Shown: positions 4,091-24,364 of the stretch, one piece after another
How positions within the stretch are numbered: position 1 is the stretch's first letter
Layout of the letters: each line of letters starts with the position of its first letter
DNA from: a virus
Virus record (IMG/VR): IMGVR_UViG_3300046712_000045
Location: 1-39,134 of that record
Direction: 5' to 3' (one strand)
DNA: 39,134 nucleotides
Notes under the pieces: generated by a model
What the model was told of the DNA's origin: nothing
Databases searched by the model: none
Seen by the model: the letters and a program-made list of their open reading frames with translations, nothing else
Made by a program: the position numbers and the translations under genes

Positions 4091-4469
4091 CTCAGTTGCG
4101 ACGGGAACTACAAACTTCTTTTCGCCAATTGGCGGAATAAGCGGCGGTGGTAACATCGTCCAACGAGCCGCCGAGATGCCGCGAAGCGGATCAATTGCAA
4201 ATTTCACCGTTTGTACCAATAGCACGCAATCCAGTACGGGCTCCCTCGTTTTGACCATCGTAACGGCCACCTGGAACAGTTCTACGCCCACGACCAGTAC
4301 GCAGACGGTGACGATAGCCGCCAATGCCGCTGCCGAGTGCGTAACCTCGGCCGGGGCGTCTATGAGTTACACCGCCGGACAGGCGATTGCCATTCAGGCC
4401 GTTAACAACGCGACTGCGGCAAGCGCCACCATTGTCAGCATCTACGCCGAGTTCACCGGGGCGCACTAA
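4035..4469 (+). CDS. Fibre head domain module in +1 frame relative to fibre gene 1
   Basis: This open frame overlaps the end of the collagen fibre gene and runs to TAA 4469. The part from about 4090 reads like a C-terminal beta-sandwich of a tail fibre: [11 protein letters not shown], then alternating strands rich in S, T, A and V, ending [11 protein letters not shown]. Such domains normally sit at the end of a fibre and not as free proteins. No good ribosome site precedes a start in this frame, and the listed GTG start (4035) lies inside the upstream gene. I think it is the detached C-terminus of the collagen fibre, separated by a +1 shift between about 4060 and 4090. It could be a real frameshift, a natural mutation or a sequencing indel. 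Confidence 0.55.
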
Positions 4470-4502
4470 CCAACCCATCCGAACGAACAGGAGCACACTT
4501 CC

Positions 4503-7500
4503 ATGAAACGCATCCTTGTGAGCGCGCTGGCCGCGCTCTCGCTGGCGTGCGCCCTGCCAAAGGCAGGAGCGCAGACCGGCTTTGTCACGATGACCGGCGC
4601 GAATCTGACCGACGCGACGGGCGCGCCGATCTCGAATGCGACGGCCTGCTTCCAGCTGACGAATCTGGCCGGCACGCCGATCGGCGTCCATGTGGGCGGC
4701 AGCGGAACGGGGCAGGCGGCGCCCAGGCAGGCTTGCGGGCCGGTCAACAACGGCGCGCTGGTGGGAACGTGGCAGCTCAGCGATCCGACGGCCGCAGGGA
4801 CGAACCTCGTTCCGGATCCGGTGATCGTCAGCGGCTTCTCGACCTGGTCGAACCCGGGATCCGGGTGGAGCATTCAGGTGGGCGGCGGTCTCGCGACCGG
4901 GCAGAATGCGTTCGTGGTGGCGCCGGGAGCCTCGGGGTTTTCGGAGAGCGCAGCCATCGCCGTGGTGCCGGGGCAGACCTACACCCTGAGCTGCTCCATG
5001 TATGCCGTGCATGTGACGGCCGGCTCGCCCGGCTGTCAGGTTTTGACGTCGAGCGGGGCAGGGCTCGCGAATGCCTTTGGGATCGCGGGTCAGGCGACCT
5101 ATCCCGAAGCGCAGTTCACGGTGCCGGCGGGTATCACGCAGGTCTACTTCTCGTTTAATCTCAACGGCGCGACCATCGCTGCCAGCCAGACGCTGGTGAT
5201 GGCCGCTCCTTTGCTGCAGGCGGGATCGAGCCGCGTGGTGGACGCGAACCTGAGCAATCCGCAGGAGCCCTGCGAGCTGCTGACGGTCACCGACAACACC
5301 AGCGGCAACGTCGCGCTTGGCGGTCCGGGGTCGGGCTACAGCTGCCTGCAGCCGCAATACACGGAAAGCTCGCCGATGACCTGCGCCGCCGGCCTCTGCA
5401 ACCTCGACACCTATGTGCCGACGGGCACTCCGGGGGTGACGCAGACGACGGGTCCGACCGGTGCAACAGGTGCGCCCGGCATGGCATGCCCTCTTGCGAC
5501 CGGCACCGTTTCAGTCGGCGGTCTGGCGGCGTCGATTACGGGAACTTGTCCAAGTCAGCAGCTCAACATCACGGTGCCGACGGGCTCGGCGACAGCATCG
5601 GGGCCGGTGGGAGCGATCCAGGTGGCCGGACCGAGCGGCGCCATTACTAATTCGCTGGTCCCAATCGGGCTGTATCCGCTTCGTGCCACGTCTACCGCCC
5701 TGTATCTCATGGACGATGGAACGGGGAGCAGCACGTTGGCGGATTCCAGCACGAACAGTAACACAATTACACTGCCCGGTTCTGGCGGTCCTACGCGGGT
5801 ACAGGGAGCACTGGATTTTGTTGGTTCGGAGTGTGTCAATACGGGCATCGCGCAAAACGCCACCGGCTCCGTGATTATCCTGGTGAATAACGCCGCCGCG
5901 TCCAGTGTCTATAACTCGGCCACTAGCTTTGAACTGCCAGTTATCCTGGGTGGAAATGGTGCAGCATCGGATTTTGTCACGCTTTACAACAACTCTACGC
6001 CATTCATGGGCTATTACAACGGGACCACGTTGTCTGATGGCGCGTGGACTATGGCCCCGCTAAGTGGGTGGCATGTTCTGGCCTTTACCGGGTTAGGTTC
6101 CACGCCCCATCTGTACATCGACGGGGTGGAAACGGCATCCTACCAGAACCAAAGTGCGGTTACAGTGCCCAGCGGAGTTAACTGGCAGATAGGATGCTTC
6201 AATGGCGTGGGTACTCCGGGTTTCATGGCCTCCCCTGGCTCAGCTCATGAACAGATAGGTGCCTTGGACTTTCAGCCCGGAACTCTGACAGCCCAGCAGG
6301 TACAGGCCGCAACAAACTGGCTACTTCAGAGTGAAGCACCTTACAATAAACAGATACCCTTTGCGGCGGGACAGGAGACGCTAAACGCTTCCAATGTTCT
6401 CGTCATGGTTGGGGACTCCCGAGTAGCGGGTGTACCGGGGACATCGGGCGGTCCCGTGGCACTACTTCCAACGCTGAATAGCGTACACGGTGCCGCGTGG
6501 TCTACCAGCTACATCAGTGAGGCCGGAGGCGCGGGCCAGGGGATAATGGGACAATTGGCAACGCTAAAGCAAACCTATGGCGTGGGTAACATCACGCGGG
6601 CAGCCATCTACTGGTCCGGTGTGAATGGCTATATTAACCAATGGGACTGCGCGGCTATCAAGGCAATTGCGGACATAGGGTACGACGTGTTTGTTGTAAC
6701 GGAGCCATCCGAGTCTACGGATACGTCCCGTGATGCATACAACGTCGTCACCTATGCAAATTACAAATCCTGTGGTGCAAAGGCTCTGGTAGACATTGCG
6801 GAAATCCCCGCGATTGGCACGGACGGGGCATCGACTACGGGGAGTTGGGCAACATACTTCGCCTCTTCGGGTGGTCCGCACTTCACCACCGCCGGGTACC
6901 AGTTAGTAGCCAACGCGATCACCAAGGTGGTGAATGCGTACTACGCCAACACGGAGGCGGGCTGGACAAACTACGCTCCTACCTCCAATGCGGGATTTAA
7001 CCTAACAACTCCCAATAGCTATATCGACGTATCGGCGGACGTTAATGGCGAGGCAGACGCGGTCTTGCCGGAGTGCCAGGGGCTGAATGGGTTACCCTAC
7101 AATGTCCACATCTTTTATTCGTCTACAACACAGCCGGATTGGGACCCTTGGATAGGGAGTCTATCAACAACTAACAGCGAGTTAATTGACGGCCAGTTGT
7201 CCCTTCTTATATTCCGGGGACAGACGGTTACCTTGCTTCCGACAAATAATCCCCCGGCAACGGGCGGTTGTCATTGGCAGATACAAGGGGGGAATCCGCA
7301 AGCTGAAATCGTTCAGGACGAACGAGCGGCTTCCAATAGCACGACATACGTTAACAGCCCGCACTTCGGCCAAACGGGGCATTACTGGGCGGGTGGTCAC
7401 GATAACATCACAACGTGCGTGTTCCAGAATATTCCCGTGGGAGCTACGGGCGTCCAGAAGTATACGGGGTGTAATCCGTGGTTCACTGTCCCGGTTTACC

Positions 7501-12773: not shown

Positions 12774-12973
12774 TCGGCTATCTGGCGGAGATTCCCTGCC
12801 CGCGGCGGGATCTTACGGAAGAGGAATTGTGGGGCGATCCGGAACCGGAGAGCCTCGAAGGGTTTCGCGGGATCTGGCAATCGAGCGCCGGACCGGCGGA
12901 GATTCGTAGAGGAAAGGAGGTCGCGGAGAATCGCCAGAGCGTAAGTGAGAGCGCAGCGTGTCGCAACCCCTGA
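12764..12973 (+). CDS. Small hypothetical protein at the end of the tail operon
   Basis: A short frame can start at GTG 12764 or TTG 12770, overlapping the previous small gene, and gives about 67-69 residues. It is acidic in the first half (DLTEEELWGDPEPESLEG) and basic later. The amino acid make-up looks more natural than that of the neighbouring shadow frames, and a GGGGTGGG run precedes it. I do not recognise a family. It ends about 20 bases before the 3' end of the opposing RHH gene, so the two are convergent. Confidence 0.4.
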   Translation: MALIGYLAEIPCPRRDLTEEELWGDPEPESLEGFRGIWQSSAGPAEIRRGKEVAENRQSVSESAACRNP

Positions 12974-12993: not shown

Positions 12994-13167
12994 CTATTTC
13001 AGACCTTCCTTTTCGGCCAGAGCGCGCAGGCCGCGTCGCACCACGTCGGCGGTGCTCAGCGATCCGGTCTTCGTCGCGAGGCGTGCGATCAGTTTGAGAT
13101 CGGCTGGCGTGAACCGAATCGGGAAGAGGGGCGCGCGGCGGGACGGCTTTGATTTCGGCGCAGGCAT
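12994..13167 (-). CDS. Ribbon-helix-helix DNA-binding protein, candidate repressor (minus strand)
   Basis: This gene reads on the minus strand from ATG 13167 to TAG 12996-12994, 57 residues. A basic start (PAPKSKPSRR) is followed by a beta-strand-like FPIRFTP and then two helices, ADLKLIARLATKTG and TADVVRRGLRALAEK, the ordinary layout of MetJ/Arc-type ribbon-helix-helix proteins, which bind tandem operators as dimers. It is the only convincing minus-strand gene in the genome. Tandem palindromic sites lie just upstream (13175-13251), so autoregulation and control of the divergent recombinase gene are likely. No Shine-Dalgarno is visible; a TACAAT element on the minus strand (13181-13176) lies so close to the ATG that the message may be leaderless. 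Role as lysogeny repressor is an inference. Confidence 0.78.
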   Translation of the reverse strand: MPAPKSKPSRRAPLFPIRFTPADLKLIARLATKTGSLSTADVVRRGLRALAEKEGLK

Positions 13168-13174
13168 CGCTGAG

Positions 13175-13251
13175 TATTGTACCGCGAATCCCCCGAGCGT
13201 GGTATGTACCCGGTATATACCCCGGTTGTACCGTGAAGACGGGCGGTACCG
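13175..13251. promoter_or_regulatory. Divergent operator region with tandem palindromic sites
   Basis: The sequence holds GGTATGTACC (13201-13210), the perfect palindrome GGTATATACC (13212-13221), GGTTGTACC (13224-13232), CGGTACCG (13244-13251) and the half-site TTGTACC (13177-13183). The centres of the first three lie about 11-12 bp apart, one helical turn. This is the spacing expected for side-by-side binding of RHH dimers. The region separates the minus-strand RHH gene from the plus-strand recombinase. A minus-strand TACAAT (13181-13176) is a possible -10 for the RHH gene. Confidence 0.75.
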
Positions 13252-13290
13252 GAGAGGGTGCCTTTAGTCACACAAAAGGAGACTGTCGGA

Positions 13291-14478
13291 GTGCACGAGA
13301 ATCCGCTTGCGGAAACCGGGGAGCGCGGGATACAGTCAGCGGTTCCTTCACGAGAGAGAACGCATACGCCGGGGCACCGCGACTGCCCGGCCTGCGAACG
13401 GGCTCGGGCCATGCACGCCGTTGTCCTGACGCCGCAGATGACTTTCTCCGCGGCTTTCGACGCCTGGATTGCGCGTCGCATCATCGATCACGCCGGCGTG
13501 TGGTCGAACGCACGCTACATTGCACCGCGCACGGAGCGCGACCTCCGACAGTACGCGCGCGCCGCCGAGCGATTCTTTGGCGCGCTGCGCCTCGAGGAGA
13601 TTCACGCCGGACACCTGCGCGAATACCAGCGGGCCCGCGCCGTGTGCGACAAGACGGCCGGGAACTGGGCCGAGCCTGCCGGCGCGAACCTGATCCGGAA
13701 GGAGGTGCAGACGGTGCTGCGCGTGATGCGGGCGGCGGGCGCGTGGAGCGAGGCAATTGAGGAGTCGCACGAGCCGCTGCAGTCGGTTGAAAACGATGTT
13801 CCGCGCGCGATGACGCCGGACGAGCAGCACCGCTTCCTGCATCTGGCCGGCAGCCGCATGGAATGGCGCGCGGTTTACTGCTGGTCGCTGGTGGCATTGC
13901 AGACGACGGCGTCGACGAACGAGCTGCGCGCGCTGCGCCTCGGGGACATCTTCCTCGAGCAGGGCGTGGTGCAGATCCGGTCTGAAGGCGCGAAGACGAA
14001 GTTTCGGGTGCGGACGATTCCGCTGCAGACGAAGGAAGTGGCATGGGCGCTCCATCAGCTCGTCGAGCGCGCAAGGGAGCTCGGAGCGGCGCAGCCGCAT
14101 CACTACCTGTTTCCGTTTCACGTCACGCAGAAAAAGTACGACGTGACGCGGCCGATGACGGTGTGGGGCCTGCGCAAGCCCTGGGAGGCGATTCGGGCGG
14201 CAGCGAATCTGGACTGGCTGCGGCCCTACGATCTCAGGCATACGGCGATCACGCGCATGGCGGAAGCGGGTGTACCGATTCAGGTGATCATGAGCTTCGC
14301 CGGTCACATGAGCCAGCGGATGCAGCTGCACTACACGAGCATCTCGATGGCGGCGAAGCGGGAGTGGGCGGCGCGGGCTTTCGAGGCGCCGGTGGGGAAC
14401 TGGGCGCAGACGGCGCGGGCGATCAAAAAGCAACCGGGGAGCATAAGTCGGGATGGGGAGCGCTCGGCGCGGGCCTGA
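13291..14478 (+). CDS. int: Tyrosine recombinase (phage integrase) with divergent active site
   Basis: I choose GTG 13291 because AAAGGAG lies 9 bases upstream; an earlier in-frame GTG at 13258 has no properly spaced site. The protein has 395 residues. The N-terminal part has DCPACERAR and a core-binding-like helical region (FDAWIARR ... LREYQRAR). The catalytic domain covers about residues 170-365. Seen catalytic elements are Arg316 (YDLRH), His339 (FAGH) and the nucleophile Tyr348 (LHYTS). The usual first catalytic Arg (TGLR..E) reads TASTNE, with Ser208 at the Arg position, and the usual His of HxxR is Tyr313. It probably inserts the phage at a tRNA-Lys gene through the attP at 15076. Expression is probably controlled by the operators just upstream. 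Confidence 0.88.
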   Translation: MHENPLAETGERGIQSAVPSRERTHTPGHRDCPACERARAMHAVVLTPQMTFSAAFDAWIARRIIDHAGVWSNARYIAPRTERDLRQYARAAERFFGALRLEEIHAGHLREYQRARAVCDKTAGNWAEPAGANLIRKEVQTVLRVMRAAGAWSEAIEESHEPLQSVENDVPRAMTPDEQHRFLHLAGSRMEWRAVYCWSLVALQTTASTNELRALRLGDIFLEQGVVQIRSEGAKTKFRVRTIPLQTKEVAWALHQLVERARELGAAQPHHYLFPFHVTQKKYDVTRPMTVWGLRKPWEAIRAAANLDWLRPYDLRHTAITRMAEAGVPIQVIMSFAGHMSQRMQLHYTSISMAAKREWAARAFEAPVGNWAQTARAIKKQPGSISRDGERSARA

Positions 14479-14947: not shown

Positions 14948-14956
14948 TTATCCACA
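14948..14956 (+). promoter_or_regulatory. Perfect DnaA box
   Basis: TTATCCACA is an exact match to the DnaA-box consensus TTATNCACA. It lies 14 bases upstream of the strong promoter at 14970, so host DnaA could influence early transcription or replication. Only one copy was noticed here. Confidence 0.5.
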
Positions 14957-14969
14957 GATGACTTTTTTA

Positions 14970-14997
14970 TTGACATTTCGGAAATCGGGTTTATGTT
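14970..14997 (+). promoter_or_regulatory. Sigma70-type promoter of the early operon
   Basis: A perfect TTGACA (14970-14975) is followed after 16 bases by TATGTT (14992-14997), and a T-rich stretch lies just upstream. It points toward the attP and the early operon starting at 15275. The local AT content stands out in a GC-rich genome. Confidence 0.65.
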
Positions 14998-15075: not shown

Positions 15076-15125
15076 ACGCCCTTTTAAGGCGTGGGTCCTG
15101 GGTTCGAGTCCCAGCGGGCTCACCA
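15076..15125 (+). other. attP core: 3' half of tRNA-Lys(UUU)
   Basis: The sequence contains an anticodon arm (ACGCC, loop CTTTTAA with anticodon TTT, GGCGT), a 5-base variable region, a T arm (CTGGG, TTCGAGT, CCCAG), the acceptor 3' strand CGGGCTC, discriminator A and CCA. No matching acceptor 5' strand or D arm lies upstream, so it is not a full tRNA gene. A tRNA 3' half next to an integrase gene is the classic phage attachment site; insertion would restore the host tRNA gene. The host should then have a tRNA-Lys beginning GAGCCCG. Confidence 0.88.
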
Positions 15126-15274: not shown

Positions 15275-16579
15275 GTGCAGCAGCCCTTCCTTGTCGATCC
15301 TTCACTCGTCGATCCAGCAACCAGCGCCGTTCCCCTTCAGCTCTCCCCCGCTTCTTCTTCCCTCGACGCCAGGCAGGTCAACTTCCTGCGCGTCTATGCC
15401 TGGCGGCTCGCCGACAGCCGGATCAACCGCTGGAGCTCGCGCGAGCAGTGCATGGACTGCGGCGTCCACCAGGCGATCCCTGAAGATCCCATCCAGCACG
15501 CGGCCGACTGCCGCGTCGGCAACGTCTTCCGCACCCTCGCCGCGCTCGATGGCGACGAAGAGTCCGCGCCGGAGGACGCCCTGATGGGGAAGGGGCATCC
15601 TCCCGGCACCTCCCGGGAGAGCGATCTGGCCGGCCTGATCCTCGAGGCGCGCAACCTCGCCTGGTCCAGAATCATCAGCCATGTCCCGCGGGTGGTAACC
15701 TGCCACGACTGCGCGCAGCACTTGTCCGAAGACGGGCTCGAGGGTCATCAGCCGACCTGCCATGCCGGCAAAGTGCTGCGACGCCTGGCCGCGCTCTCGG
15801 AGCACACCGCCGCGGCAGCGCGCAGAGTTTTGACACCGGTGTCCGGGTCCTCCTTGCCGGGCACCGGCTTTTTCGGCGAGCCGAAGAATTACAACGAGCC
15901 GTGGAAAGTCGTCGACGGGCCGACGCGCGACGAGTATGAGACGCTGATCGTCGATCGGAACGGAACGCGTCTCGCCGACCTGCACACGCTGGACGCCGGC
16001 GCTTCGGTCGAGCGGCAATTCGCCAACCGCATTCGCGCCTGCGTCACCTTCTGCGCTGGGTTTGCGACGGAGTATCTCGATCAGATCGTCGAGAAGTACG
16101 GCATCCGCAACTTCGCGATCATGGCGTACGATGCGGCGCAGCTGCGGATCAGCGTGCTCGCCACAGTCCGCGCCATGATCGATGAGGATGCGCGGCAGCG
16201 TGCGGTGCTCGAGTTGCCGGAGGATCGGCCGCGCGGTGAAGATGCGCTCTATGCCGCGGCTGAGGCTCCGGCGCCCTGCGCCGCGCCGGCATGCGCCTGC
16301 GACCAGGCGACTGGGTGCGAGAGTCTGCCCTCGGTCGAGGATCTGGACCGGGTTGCCGAAGAGCAACGCGTGGCCGCCATCACCGCCCGCCCGTGTGTGT
16401 GGTGCGATGAGGGGAATCCCGCCGTCGTGTCCTCGGTCTCGGAAGCCTTCGTCCACACCAATACCCCGGTGGGCCGCGTCATCTGCAAACGCCGCACTTC
16501 GGATGAGTTTCTGGATCGCATCCATGATCCGTTTGGGGCAAAGAAACCGGTCTCCGGAGAAGAAGCGGTGTCCGAGTGA
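15275..16579 (+). CDS. Early protein with two C2HC zinc-finger motifs, unknown function
   Basis: The protein has 434 residues, starting at GTG 15275 with GGAGG 13 bases upstream inside a hairpin. Two repeated metal-binding motifs are visible: Cys59-Cys62-His75-Cys79 and Cys143-Cys146-His158-Cys162, each of the form CxxC ... HxxxC. A middle block (LIVDRNGTRLADLHT, then RIRACVTFCAGF around residues 225-270) resembles a small domain found in many phage hypothetical proteins. A further CVWC lies at residues 374-377. It opens the early operon and its stop overlaps the next start (GTGA). DNA or RNA binding is likely from the fingers, but no specific function can be given. Confidence 0.75.
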   Translation: MQQPFLVDPSLVDPATSAVPLQLSPASSSLDARQVNFLRVYAWRLADSRINRWSSREQCMDCGVHQAIPEDPIQHAADCRVGNVFRTLAALDGDEESAPEDALMGKGHPPGTSRESDLAGLILEARNLAWSRIISHVPRVVTCHDCAQHLSEDGLEGHQPTCHAGKVLRRLAALSEHTAAAARRVLTPVSGSSLPGTGFFGEPKNYNEPWKVVDGPTRDEYETLIVDRNGTRLADLHTLDAGASVERQFANRIRACVTFCAGFATEYLDQIVEKYGIRNFAIMAYDAAQLRISVLATVRAMIDEDARQRAVLELPEDRPRGEDALYAAAEAPAPCAAPACACDQATGCESLPSVEDLDRVAEEQRVAAITARPCVWCDEGNPAVVSSVSEAFVHTNTPVGRVICKRRTSDEFLDRIHDPFGAKKPVSGEEAVSE

Positions 16580-18282
16580 CCGCCGCGAAGGTACAGCCGA
16601 TCTCCCGCCCTCTTCCCGCCGGCGCGAGCGTGCGCAGTCTGCCGCTCTCCGCGCTCCACGCAGCGCCCTGGAACGCACGCCAGACTTTTGACGAGCAGGC
16701 GCAGCAGGAACTTGTCGCCTCGATCCGCCAGCACGGGCTTCTGGTTGCGCTCATCGTGCGGCCGATTGAGATCGCGGATGGCGAAGTCTTCGAGATCGTG
16801 GCCGGCCATCGCCGCTTCCTCGCCGCCGGCGAGCTGAAGCTCGATGAGGTTGCGTGCGACGTGCGCTCGCTGACCGACGAGCAGGCGCGCGAGGTGGGTC
16901 TGGTCGATAACCTGCAGCGCGCCGATCTCTCCGCGCTCGAAGAGGCTGAGGCGTATCAGCAGATGTTCCAGCTGGCCGGCTCGGCGGGGGAGAAGATCAC
17001 GCCGGCGGGTGTTGCGGCGAAGGTGGGCAAGCCGGAGGGGCATGTCCGCCTTCGCCTGCGTCTCCTGTCGGCCGAGCTTGCCGTGCGTGAAGCGTTGCGC
17101 GCGGACAGGATCACGCTGGGCCATGCGATCGAGCTGGCGCGCCTCGGGGCCACCATGCAGAAGGAACTGCTCGACTGGCTGCAGTTTGAAAGCTGGGGCG
17201 AGCGCAAGTCGAAGCGTGAGGTCGTTCCCAGCCTGCCGGAGCTCAAGCGTCACATTCGCGAGGATGTGATGCTCGACCTCGCAAAGGCTCCGTTCGACAC
17301 CAAAGATACCGCACTTGTCCCCGCTGCAGGCGCCTGCGTCGACTGCGAGAAGCGCACCGGCAACAACCGGCTTCTTTTCGCCGATGTGAAGCAGGGCGAC
17401 ATTTGCACGGATCCGCCGTGCTACTCGTCCAAGCTGACGCGGTCGATCGACATCGCGATCGAGCAGCTGACGGCGAAGGGTGAGAAGGCGGTCCGGATTT
17501 CTGAGCACTATCAGCGCCAGAAGTCGACGCCGAAAGAGGCGCTGGTCTCGCAGCAGTATCACGATCTCCAGTACGCGGGCCGCCGCGACGAAAAGTGCGA
17601 TGCGCTTGCGGTCGGGATCTATGTCGGCGGTCGCGATCGCGGCAAGCGTATTCGGATCTGCCTCGATGCGAAGTGCAAGGTGCACGCCGGCGGCTACAGG
17701 GGAGCTGGAGCCAGTGCGTCGCCGGAAGACGTGGCGCGACGCGCGAAGGCGAGAGCCGAAAAAGAATGCCGCGTTCGCATCTTCAAAGCGGCGCTGGAGG
17801 CGACGGCGAAGGCGAAGGCTGTCTCCGACGCTCAGGTGCGCGAGCTCGTCGCATACGCCGTCGATCGAGGCGATAACAACGGCGTCGTCGCGCTGCTGGG
17901 CCTCCTCGAATGGCCGAAGGCGTTCGCGCAGTTCGCAGGCCGCAAGCAGCTGCTGGCGAAGCTGGCGACGGTGACGGCAGGCCGCGCCGCGGCGATCGGA
18001 TTGCTCGCCTCGGTTGCGAACGCGCTGGCGGTCAACGAATACAACATCTCGAAGCCGGAGTCTCTGGAGGAGGTCGCGCGCGGCTTCGGCGTCGATGTTG
18101 CGAAGATCCGCAAAGAGGTCGCTGCGGAGCTAGCGAAGAAGAAGGCGAAAAAAGCTCCTGCTGAAAAAGCAGCGAAGAAGGGCGGCCTGTCGGCCGCTGC
18201 GCGCGCGAAGATCGCCGCGGCGCAGAAGGCGCGCTGGGTGAAGGCGCGCTGGGTGAAGGCGAAGAAAGCGGGCCGCAAGTGA
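16576..18282 (+). CDS. ParB-like protein with zinc cluster and lysine-rich tail
   Basis: The protein has 568 residues, GTG 16576, overlapping the preceding stop. The N-terminal domain (about residues 15-110) has the ParB/Spo0J pattern: LIVRP, EIVAGHRRFLAA (GHRRF at 77-81) and VDNLQRADLSALEEA. A helix-turn-helix region follows (ITPAGVAAKVGKPEGHVRLRL). Unlike short ParB proteins it has a cysteine cluster (Cys254, Cys257, Cys277, Cys282) and a long C-terminal part ending in a Lys/Ala-rich tail with a tandem 5-residue repeat (KARWV). No ParA partner was found, so it may act in transcription, replication or DNA packing and not in partition. Confidence 0.82.
   Translation: MTAAKVQPISRPLPAGASVRSLPLSALHAAPWNARQTFDEQAQQELVASIRQHGLLVALIVRPIEIADGEVFEIVAGHRRFLAAGELKLDEVACDVRSLTDEQAREVGLVDNLQRADLSALEEAEAYQQMFQLAGSAGEKITPAGVAAKVGKPEGHVRLRLRLLSAELAVREALRADRITLGHAIELARLGATMQKELLDWLQFESWGERKSKREVVPSLPELKRHIREDVMLDLAKAPFDTKDTALVPAAGACVDCEKRTGNNRLLFADVKQGDICTDPPCYSSKLTRSIDIAIEQLTAKGEKAVRISEHYQRQKSTPKEALVSQQYHDLQYAGRRDEKCDALAVGIYVGGRDRGKRIRICLDAKCKVHAGGYRGAGASASPEDVARRAKARAEKECRVRIFKAALEATAKAKAVSDAQVRELVAYAVDRGDNNGVVALLGLLEWPKAFAQFAGRKQLLAKLATVTAGRAAAIGLLASVANALAVNEYNISKPESLEEVARGFGVDVAKIRKEVAAELAKKKAKKAPAEKAAKKGGLSAAARAKIAAAQKARWVKARWVKAKKAGRK
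18226..18255 (+). repeat. Tandem 15-bp repeat in the tail of the ParB-like gene
   Basis: The unit AAGGCGCGCTGGGTG occurs twice in a row (18226-18240, 18241-18255). It doubles the basic peptide KARWV near the C-terminus without changing frame. Confidence 0.9.
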
Positions 18283-21873: not shown

Positions 21874-22671
21874 ATGAGTGTGCGCGCAGTGGCATATGTG
21901 AAGCAGCTCGTGGTCTGCCCGAACGAGGACCGATTGACGAAGACGGAAAAGCTGGTCGCGCTGTGCCTGGCGGATAGTCATCAGGACAAGTCCGCCACGT
22001 ACACCTATCCAGCCGTGGCCACGCTCGCCGAGGAATCTCTCATGGACGAGCGGTCCTGCCGTCGCATTCTGGGTGAGCTCGCCCGGAAAGGCGTTGTTGA
22101 GATCCTGCGTCCGGTCAGCCAGGGCCGCGGCCTCGTGAACTGCTATCGTTTCCCGGCTCTCGATCCTCCGTGGAAATCTCCCGGAAAAGGGGGACACAGT
22201 GTCCCCCTTCTTTCCGCACAAAGGGGGGTGGAAAGGAGGGCAAAAGGGGGACAGAAACCGCATCCGTATATAGAAGAACTTGAACTGGAACAAGTACAAA
22301 ACCTAAAACCTCCCCCTGTAGTCCCCCATGCTGCGCACGGGGGACGGGCGGCGTTGAAAACGCTCGCTCCGCAGGTGGATGCCGTGATGCAGGGCTGCGG
22401 TTTTGCCGAACGGCGGCGGAGCTTGCGGCGGTTGATCGAGGGGCAATTGCAGCTGGAGTGCGACAAGGGCAAGCCCGCGCAAACCGCGGCTCTGGCCATG
22501 ATCGCGGCGTGGAAGCGGCTTCGCGCCAACGCGCATCTGCTGCGCCACGACTGGGGCGCGGCGAAGTTCTTCGGTGAGGGGCACTGGCGCGACGGAAGCC
22601 TGCCGTTCGACGAGCAAAAACTCCAACGCCTGCGGTCCGAGGCGAACGCGCGGATCGGACTTACGCGATGA
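21874..22671 (+). CDS. Replication initiator-like winged-helix protein
   Basis: The protein has 265 residues, GGAGGG before ATG 21874. The N-terminal domain (residues 18-85: KLVALCLADS, TYTYPAVATLAEESLMDERSCRRILGEL) is a winged helix of the type used by phage replication proteins that start on the origin (lambda O-like). The middle (residues 95-155) is low in structure and is encoded by the repeat cluster 22185-22345. The C-terminal part is helical and may bind a helicase loader or the host helicase. An initiator with its origin inside the gene is known from lambda. The stop overlaps the next ATG. Confidence 0.7.
   Translation: MSVRAVAYVKQLVVCPNEDRLTKTEKLVALCLADSHQDKSATYTYPAVATLAEESLMDERSCRRILGELARKGVVEILRPVSQGRGLVNCYRFPALDPPWKSPGKGGHSVPLLSAQRGVERRAKGGQKPHPYIEELELEQVQNLKPPPVVPHAAHGGRAALKTLAPQVDAVMQGCGFAERRRSLRRLIEGQLQLECDKGKPAQTAALAMIAAWKRLRANAHLLRHDWGAAKFFGEGHWRDGSLPFDEQKLQRLRSEANARIGLTR
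22185..22345. repeat. Iteron-like GGGGGAC cluster and AT-rich segment, candidate replication origin
   Basis: GGGGGAC occurs at 22189-22195, 22246-22252 and 22339-22345 on the plus strand and as GTCCCCC at 22201-22207 and 22321-22327; a variant AAAGGGGGG is at 22220. The 12-mer AAAAGGGGGACA is present twice (22185, 22242). The first copy forms a near-perfect 23-bp palindrome, arms 22187-22197 and 22199-22209. An AT-rich stretch (about 22262-22310) separates the repeats. Repeats plus AT-rich DNA inside an initiator gene mirror the lambda origin. Confidence 0.55.
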
Positions 22672-23036
22672 CTCTCGAAGAGCGGCGGCGGCTGGACTGG
22701 CTGGCGTACCGGCTGGGGCTCTGGATCCGCGAGATGCGCGAGAAGGAGAACTGGACGCAGGCGGAGCTCGCCGCAAAGCTCGACGTTCATCGCAACCGGA
22801 TCAGCCGCTGGGAGAAGGGCGAAAAAGATCCTCAGATGCGGTCGATGGAGATTGCGGATTTCGTGCAGCTCTGCGACATGTTCGCCTGCGATCCGGGCGG
22901 TGCGCTGCTGAAGATCCTGAAGGCGCCGCGCAGCACGGAGAAGATGCCGTCGGCGGCGGAGTACGAGCCGGAGCCGATCCTGACCGAACTGATCGACGAG
23001 CGCGATCCGCCGCTGACGAAGAGGGAGCGCGCATGA
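22668..23036 (+). CDS. XRE-family transcription regulator
   Basis: The protein has 122 residues from ATG 22668 (ATGA overlap). Residues 15-70 form a typical helix-turn-helix (IREMREKENWTQAELAAKLDV, then RISRWEKG). The C-terminal half is acidic and proline-rich, with no peptidase or dimer domain seen. It could act as a repressor or activator in the early operon. Its own operator is not recognised. Confidence 0.75.
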   Translation: MTLEERRRLDWLAYRLGLWIREMREKENWTQAELAAKLDVHRNRISRWEKGEKDPQMRSMEIADFVQLCDMFACDPGGALLKILKAPRSTEKMPSAAEYEPEPILTELIDERDPPLTKRERA

Positions 23037-24130: not shown

Positions 24131-24364
24131 GTGGCTCGCACGATCAAGAGCGAAGAGCAGCGCCGGATGGATGAGCGCATCGGTCGGCGGATCGAAGCCG
24201 TGCGCAAGGCAACGGGAAAGAAGGCCTCGGTGTTGGCGAGAGAAGTTGAGCTATCGCCGAAGACGCTATGCGGCTATGAAGCGGGGCGCAGCTCGGTTCC
24301 CACGTCGGTGCTGCTGAAGATCGCGAAGGCGCTGGAAATCTCGCTGCACGTCCTCATGCAGTAA
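24131..24364 (+). CDS. Small XRE-family regulator (Cro-like)
   Basis: The protein has 77 residues, GTG 24131. Helix-turn-helix: IEAVRKATGKKASVLAREVEL, then TLCGYEAGRSSVPTSVLLKIAKALEI, the normal XRE layout. It is the last gene of the early operon before the terminator at 24481. A Cro- or repressor-like role is plausible, but the operator is not known. Confidence 0.7.
   Translation: MARTIKSEEQRRMDERIGRRIEAVRKATGKKASVLAREVELSPKTLCGYEAGRSSVPTSVLLKIAKALEISLHVLMQ

Follow-up and report, generated by a model that had tools for sequence, protein, structure and literature searches.

A ribbon-helix-helix gene divergent from the integrase of a temperate phage: a candidate local regulator of the integration module

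Among the ribbon-helix-helix (RHH) proteins of phages, Arc and Mnt of P22 control the ant immunity region and not the integrase. In the CI/Cro switch of lambda, the repressor message (cI from PRM) is leaderless. Dimers of the RHH protein RelB occupy neighbouring 12-bp half-sites that have TTGTAA-like cores and share one face of the DNA; RelB represses through these tandem half-sites and is under tight autoregulation (PMC2812701). The integrase IntS of the prophage KplE1 represses itself, and its att site overlaps the int promoter (PMC2951348). The mycobacteriophage BPs shows integration-dependent immunity, with attP inside the repressor gene (PMC4557955). Leaderless genes carry a TANNNT signature about 12 bp before the start and no Shine-Dalgarno (SD) sequence (PMC3160421). 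A literature search for RHH proteins acting on an integrase or excisionase found nothing matching.

The window analysed here is an entire virus record of 39,134 bp, in which a small RHH gene faces away from a tyrosine recombinase. We consider it on balance probable that the RHH protein is a local, autoregulated switch of the integration module, which also gates the integrase promoter. The pair is a candidate for a regulatory module in temperate phages of Acidobacteria, a soil phylum that is abundant but hard to culture.

The RHH gene and its linkage to the integrase

The RHH (CopG/Arc-like) regulator gene is located at 12994-13167 on the minus strand, with an ATG start, and its translation of 57 residues is MPAPKSKPSRRAPLFPIRFTPADLKLIARLATKTGSLSTADVVRRGLRALAEKEGLK. 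Homologues are present at the same place in relatives, also divergent from int. The differences among the three closest copies fall mostly on the third codon position (11/11/25, 10/8/21 and 13/6/19 for positions 1/2/3), which shows selection at the protein level and marks a real gene; the 57-residue minus-strand gene divergent from the recombinase, as first described, is thus confirmed by its homologues and codon pattern. RNA folding revealed no hairpin or terminator 3' of the gene that was better than shuffles. The neighbouring tyrosine recombinase (integrase) is at 13291-14478 on the plus strand (PF00589, E 5.6e-20). Its GTG start at 13291, with the SD sequence AAAAGGAG at 13274-13281 (9 nt before), was preferred over a longer frame from the GTG at 13258. 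The N-terminus of the integrase contains H25, H29, C32 and C35 (alignment A1); this H-x3-H-x2-C-x2-C pattern is invariant in nine of nine aligned integrases and is a possible zinc-binding module.

Pfam and PHROG models gave no match above cut-off for the RHH protein of the window alone, and a search of viral contigs with this single sequence gave no confirmed relative. The 50,697 deposited phage records (GenBank phages) contained no relative of the RHH protein or the integrase of the window. The aligned homologues were more informative. Pfam RHH_1 matched 22 of the 31 (best 1.2e-7; the window's own member unmatched), PHROG_876 (transcriptional repressor) matched 20 of the 31, and the protein of the window aligns with close homologues such as that of G002, which is itself above the RHH_1 cut-off. 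A profile search against solved structures also matched the family to CopG (E 3.5e-4). Judged by these sequence profiles, the family is a member of the RHH (MetJ/Arc/CopG) superfamily, in agreement with the first assignment. The AlphaFold monomer (pLDDT 80.5) has helices at 21-34 and 39-54, with the strand unformed in the monomer. Foldseek placed NikR, ParD and Arc among the top matches, but weakly (best E 1.3); for a monomer so small, weak scores are expected. The weak Foldseek matches, and a window protein that falls below all Pfam and PHROG models, count against the local switch.

The Foldseek matches include the ParD/PrpA antitoxins, and RHH antitoxins autoregulate via similar operators (PMC2812701). 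The gene might therefore be an orphan antitoxin of the ParD/CopG type, left after loss of the toxin-antitoxin pair. However, the protein is about as long as a bare RHH domain and has no toxin-binding tail; no recognisable toxin partner was seen and none recurs in the family, and the gene is linked to int. Such an origin is highly improbable.

A first scan of virus contigs gave ten recombinase relatives; scanning both bacterial genomes and virus contigs with profiles then yielded about 35 usable loci, many of them metagenomic fragments. An RHH ORF lies just upstream of the recombinase on the opposite strand in 30 of 35 family loci, and never on the same strand; because the RHH profile was built from members of the same families, this count measures conservation and not blind discovery. 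Unrelated integrases, used as the control, had no RHH gene beside them (0/21), and among 200 random segments of family phage genomes only 3 scored, all at known RHH loci. The five family loci without RHH are L019, L040, L064, L065 and L066. The preliminary description had proposed co-conservation in relatives as the test of its own reading, and the pair withstood it. The idea of a single small repressor, on the other hand, does not hold across the family: a tandem pair of RHH genes occurs in at least nine relatives, usually with an ‘ANVIRLAI’ type near int and an ‘AHIQMAI’ type beyond, and others have just one.

Some individual loci are worth recording. The pair is kept in an Acidobacteria MAG (L017) with no detectable large terminase, which is either a prophage remnant or an incomplete MAG. 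L003 and L004 carry an insertion at ~4417-4620, absent from L005, with an extra minus-strand ORF (MSDLLSLARERAIRRLMELNG...); this ORF overlaps the RHH stop (ATGA) and ends in a copy of the RHH 3' end. The conserved element AGGAAAGGAGGTCGCGGAGAATCGCCAGAGC is located at 12910-12940 of the window, in the intergenic space that separates the tail-fibre gene from the 3' end of the RHH gene, and is also found in L002, L003, L005 and L011.

The RHH promoter and the operator-like array

The RHH promoter of the window has a -10 element TACAAT at 13176-13181 on the minus strand, 8 nt before the ATG. The -35 position at 13200-13205 on the same strand (ATACCA) has 3 of 6 consensus bases, with an 18-bp spacer to TACAAT. 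Across the family, 23 of 28 loci have a TAnnnT hexamer whose end lies 5-9 nt (mode 6) upstream of the RHH start and whose first T is 11-15 nt upstream (mode 12); SD-like bases precede the start in just two of the 28. The distal genes of two-RHH loci have the same TAnnnT layout by inspection. This placement and the near absence of SD sequences indicate that the RHH message is very probably leaderless, a firmer statement than the ‘possibly leaderless’ message first suggested.

The gap between the RHH gene and int was searched by palindrome, motif and tandem-repeat analysis. Two operator-like palindromes, O1 GGTATGTACC (13201-13210, overlapping the -35 hexamer) and O2 GGTATATACC (13212-13221), are 11 bp apart, and O2 corresponds to a conserved GTATATAC in L035 and L036. 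The imperfect repeat O3 GGTTGTACC (13224-13232) has its half-site 11 bp from that of O2. The right half-sites GTACC/ATACC/GTACC begin at 13206, 13217 and 13228, exactly 11 bp apart. These elements have no strand. The palindromes reported at 11-12 bp spacing are thus in place, at a pitch of about 11 bp. A further palindrome, CGGTACCG (13244-13251, no strand), is not conserved in L035/L036 and may well be a chance occurrence.

Short near-palindromes are ordinary in this genome: 1184 of 3905 windows hold as many as the gap. The palindrome count therefore proves nothing and was dropped as operator evidence. With up to 1 mismatch allowed, GGTAYRTACC is confined to O1 and O2 within the 39 kb, where 0.65 are expected, and a count of 2 was reached in 10 of 100 shuffles. 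The tandem-repeat score for 10-12-bp units at the gap is the genome maximum, tied with a stretch at ~24.6 kb; this second 11-bp repeat is coding and was ruled out as an operator. Conservation carries the array beyond chance. In the two closest clades (L035; and L036/L037/L038, with near-identical copies of L036), GTATATAC and GTA(C/T)(A/G)TAC recur at 11-bp spacing 23-53 bp upstream of the RHH start, and the repeats are kept while their flanks diverge. In more distant clades the letters of the array change and the pitch tends to stay. The repeat-lag statistic over 28 intergenic regions gave mean z values of 1.55 at lag 11, 1.05 at lag 21 and 0.89 at lag 10, which are descriptive, as related loci are not independent. 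Among the distant loci the pattern is strongest in L039, with three 11-bp units, in L054, with a pitch of 10 bp, and in L042. These comparisons support an operator-like array of 11-bp pitch in the gap.

In the window and in L036, L039, L042, L050, L054 and L022, the array begins at +31 to +38 relative to the RHH start, which coincides with the -35 position of the RHH promoter. Array-bearing loci mostly have poor -35 hexamers (1-3 of 6). Loci with only an ‘AHIQMAI’-type RHH combine a perfect TTGACA -35 with the lack of a clear array; in the perfect-TTGACA loci L043-L046 and L017 the 11-bp array is weak or absent, which speaks against the local switch. The contrast is compatible with repression through overlap and equally with activation of a promoter that is weak. 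The second possibility would make RHH an activator of its own promoter, in the manner of CI at PRM, forming a bistable switch with control of int secondary. It accords with arrays ending at poor -35 hexamers, with TTGACA loci that lack a clear array, and with a message that is leaderless like that of cI. However, the TTGACA loci are all of one RHH type (A only), so that the contrast between array and -35 may reflect a single evolutionary event, and overlap of the -35 fits repression equally. We regard this bistable switch, with int control secondary, as very unlikely.

No convincing int promoter candidate was found in the window, and L048 and L049 have a good int promoter ~45-65 bp past the operator-like repeats. 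Direct occlusion of int is therefore not uniform, and both points weigh against the local switch. Operator words and 13-mers, searched in ten phage genomes, were confined to the RHH-int gap; the few isolated hits elsewhere stayed under the level of the random control. Since the operator sequence is absent elsewhere in the genome of the window and in nine relatives, regulation by RHH looks local.

Attachment site, early region and lysogeny

The attP core (15076-15125, plus strand) is the 3' half of tRNA-Lys(TTT), downstream of int, and the same core flanks the integrated relative G002. In G002 the intact tRNA-Lys is at the left end and the repeated 3' half is at the right end after int, which shows that it is integrated; the intact tRNA is at attL in G001 as well, which is likewise integrated. 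The window and L011 each contain one attP only. As the tRNA-Lys 3' half lies downstream of int and a relative was caught integrated, the phage of the window is, by its genome anatomy, temperate. An attP upstream of int, in the element at 12910-12940, was rejected since the downstream tRNA-Lys 3' half recurs at the ends of the integrated relative. Matches to Acidobacteria genomes point to an uncultured soil bacterium of this phylum as the host.

An inferred early promoter (sigma70-like TTGACA-16-TATGTT; 14970-14997, plus strand) is conserved in relatives. It is preceded by a DnaA-box-like TTATCCACA, and the element at 14948-14997 is ~80-100 bp left of attP. In L067 the -35 region is longer by one base, and the divergent L039 has TTGACA-16-TAGTCT at the corresponding place. 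The promoter is directed across attP, towards the next gene and ParB; in relatives ParB comes after attP, and the circular genomes have the order int, attP, then ParB and early genes. The ParB_N + HTH_ParB protein of the window, encoded downstream of attP at 16576-18282, has 568 aa, and ParB_N is found in 12 of 20 family records. From this order, integration would disconnect the predicted promoter from the early genes.

The attachment site bears on a third role, that of a recombination directionality or architectural factor (Xis/Cox-like) which also regulates int. The RHH gene always adjoins int, and excisionase-type HTH_17 exceeded the cut-off in only 3 of 17 genomes, the window having none. 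However, the array is ~1.8 kb from attP, and no GTAYRTAC is found near attP. Such a factor seems decidedly improbable.

A family-wide regulator search covered PF01381, PF00717, PF12728 and PF01402. The window encodes two Cro/C1-type HTH proteins in the early region, at 22668-23036 and 24131-24364 (both plus strand); the second is kept in G001, G002, G010 and G015 and is a candidate for another lysogeny regulator. HTH_3 is patchy (9 of 20 family genomes), and no S24-type (Peptidase_S24) CI repressor was found in 17 family genomes. One relative, L011 (G010), has a 1.18-kb deletion at ~4998-5001 that fuses the C-terminal half of RHH to the last ~100 codons of int. Lost with it are the start of the RHH gene, the operators and the greater part of int; the attP is unintegrated, and the deletion may be natural, with loss of the module, or may come from faulty assembly.

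These data allow RHH to be weighed as a master lysogeny (immunity) repressor, which would act like CI and keep the lytic programme off via the divergent promoter, whose transcripts in the circular phage would run through int towards the early genes. Within the family, tight linkage to int is seen for RHH and for no other regulator, S24-type CI was missing from the 17 genomes and HTH_3 is patchy, the circular genomes place attP, ParB and the early genes after int, and the L011 deletion resembles a clear-plaque derivative. However, that deletion may be faulty assembly, the early genes of the lysogen lie at the far end from RHH and int (G002 attL/attR), two other HTH regulators are encoded, and the ten genomes searched have no operator words at lytic promoters; the early promoter at 14970-14997 has none. 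A master repressor is unlikely. The preliminary description had proposed a lysogeny switch that replaces CI/Cro, which is not supported: the phage also encodes the two Cro/C1-type proteins, and the operator words are confined to the gap. That description is therefore partly supported; it stands for the RHH gene, the array, the leaderless message and the co-conservation, lacks support for the CI/Cro replacement and fails on the single repressor as a family rule.

Proposed role and comparison with known systems

The confined operator words, the additional HTH genes and the early promoter without an operator make a local role a better reading than a master switch. RHH probably controls itself and the integrase. 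In the local switch that we favour, RHH dimers would occupy O1-O3 next to one another, all on the same face of the DNA, at the 11-bp pitch. The array, which starts at the -35 of the predicted leaderless promoter, fills much of the space toward int. RHH would thereby set its own level, by repression or activation, and on the shared control region it would restrain int transcription, so that the prophage stays integrated. Because attP is 3' of int, self-repression of the KplE1 type is unavailable to the integrase, and a separate regulator makes sense. A dedicated RHH regulator would also explain how an integrase is kept quiet when its attachment site is far from the promoter.

In a related reading the locus is a minimal lysogeny device of two parts: a leaderless RHH that activates its own synthesis and gates the integrase, and the act of integration, which serves as the switch. 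Insertion of the prophage at tRNA-Lys would sever the promoter at 14970-14997 from the lytic operon, so that a repressor of the lytic promoter would be unnecessary. We hold this to be quite unlikely as a whole; the conserved order of promoter, attP and early genes makes integration as a lysogeny switch directly testable.

The local switch shares several properties with described systems. The RHH protein of the window is similar to CopG (pMV158), Arc and Mnt (P22), being small, with a predicted helix-helix unit that would follow a short strand region, and with predicted tandem subsites spaced by roughly a helical turn close to the promoter of its own gene. It differs from Arc and Mnt in its coupling to int, and in the two tandem RHH genes of at least nine relatives. 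Repression by RelB through tandem 12-bp half-sites is a parallel for the proposed action on the array; unlike RelB, the protein has no recognisable toxin partner and is linked to a divergent integrase. The integrase resembles IntS of KplE1 as a tRNA-associated prophage integrase that might be under local negative control; whereas here the attP core is downstream of int and a separate RHH protein would act at the promoter. As in BPs, attP appears from the anatomy to be sited so that integration would change gene expression; however, it lies between the inferred early promoter and the early genes. The locus also recalls lambda CI/Cro, with a divergent control region, multiple operator-like sites and a probably leaderless repressor message. 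It differs from lambda in having no second operator region, Cro-like divergent partner or S24 repressor, and in its regulator, which belongs to the RHH and not to the HTH type.
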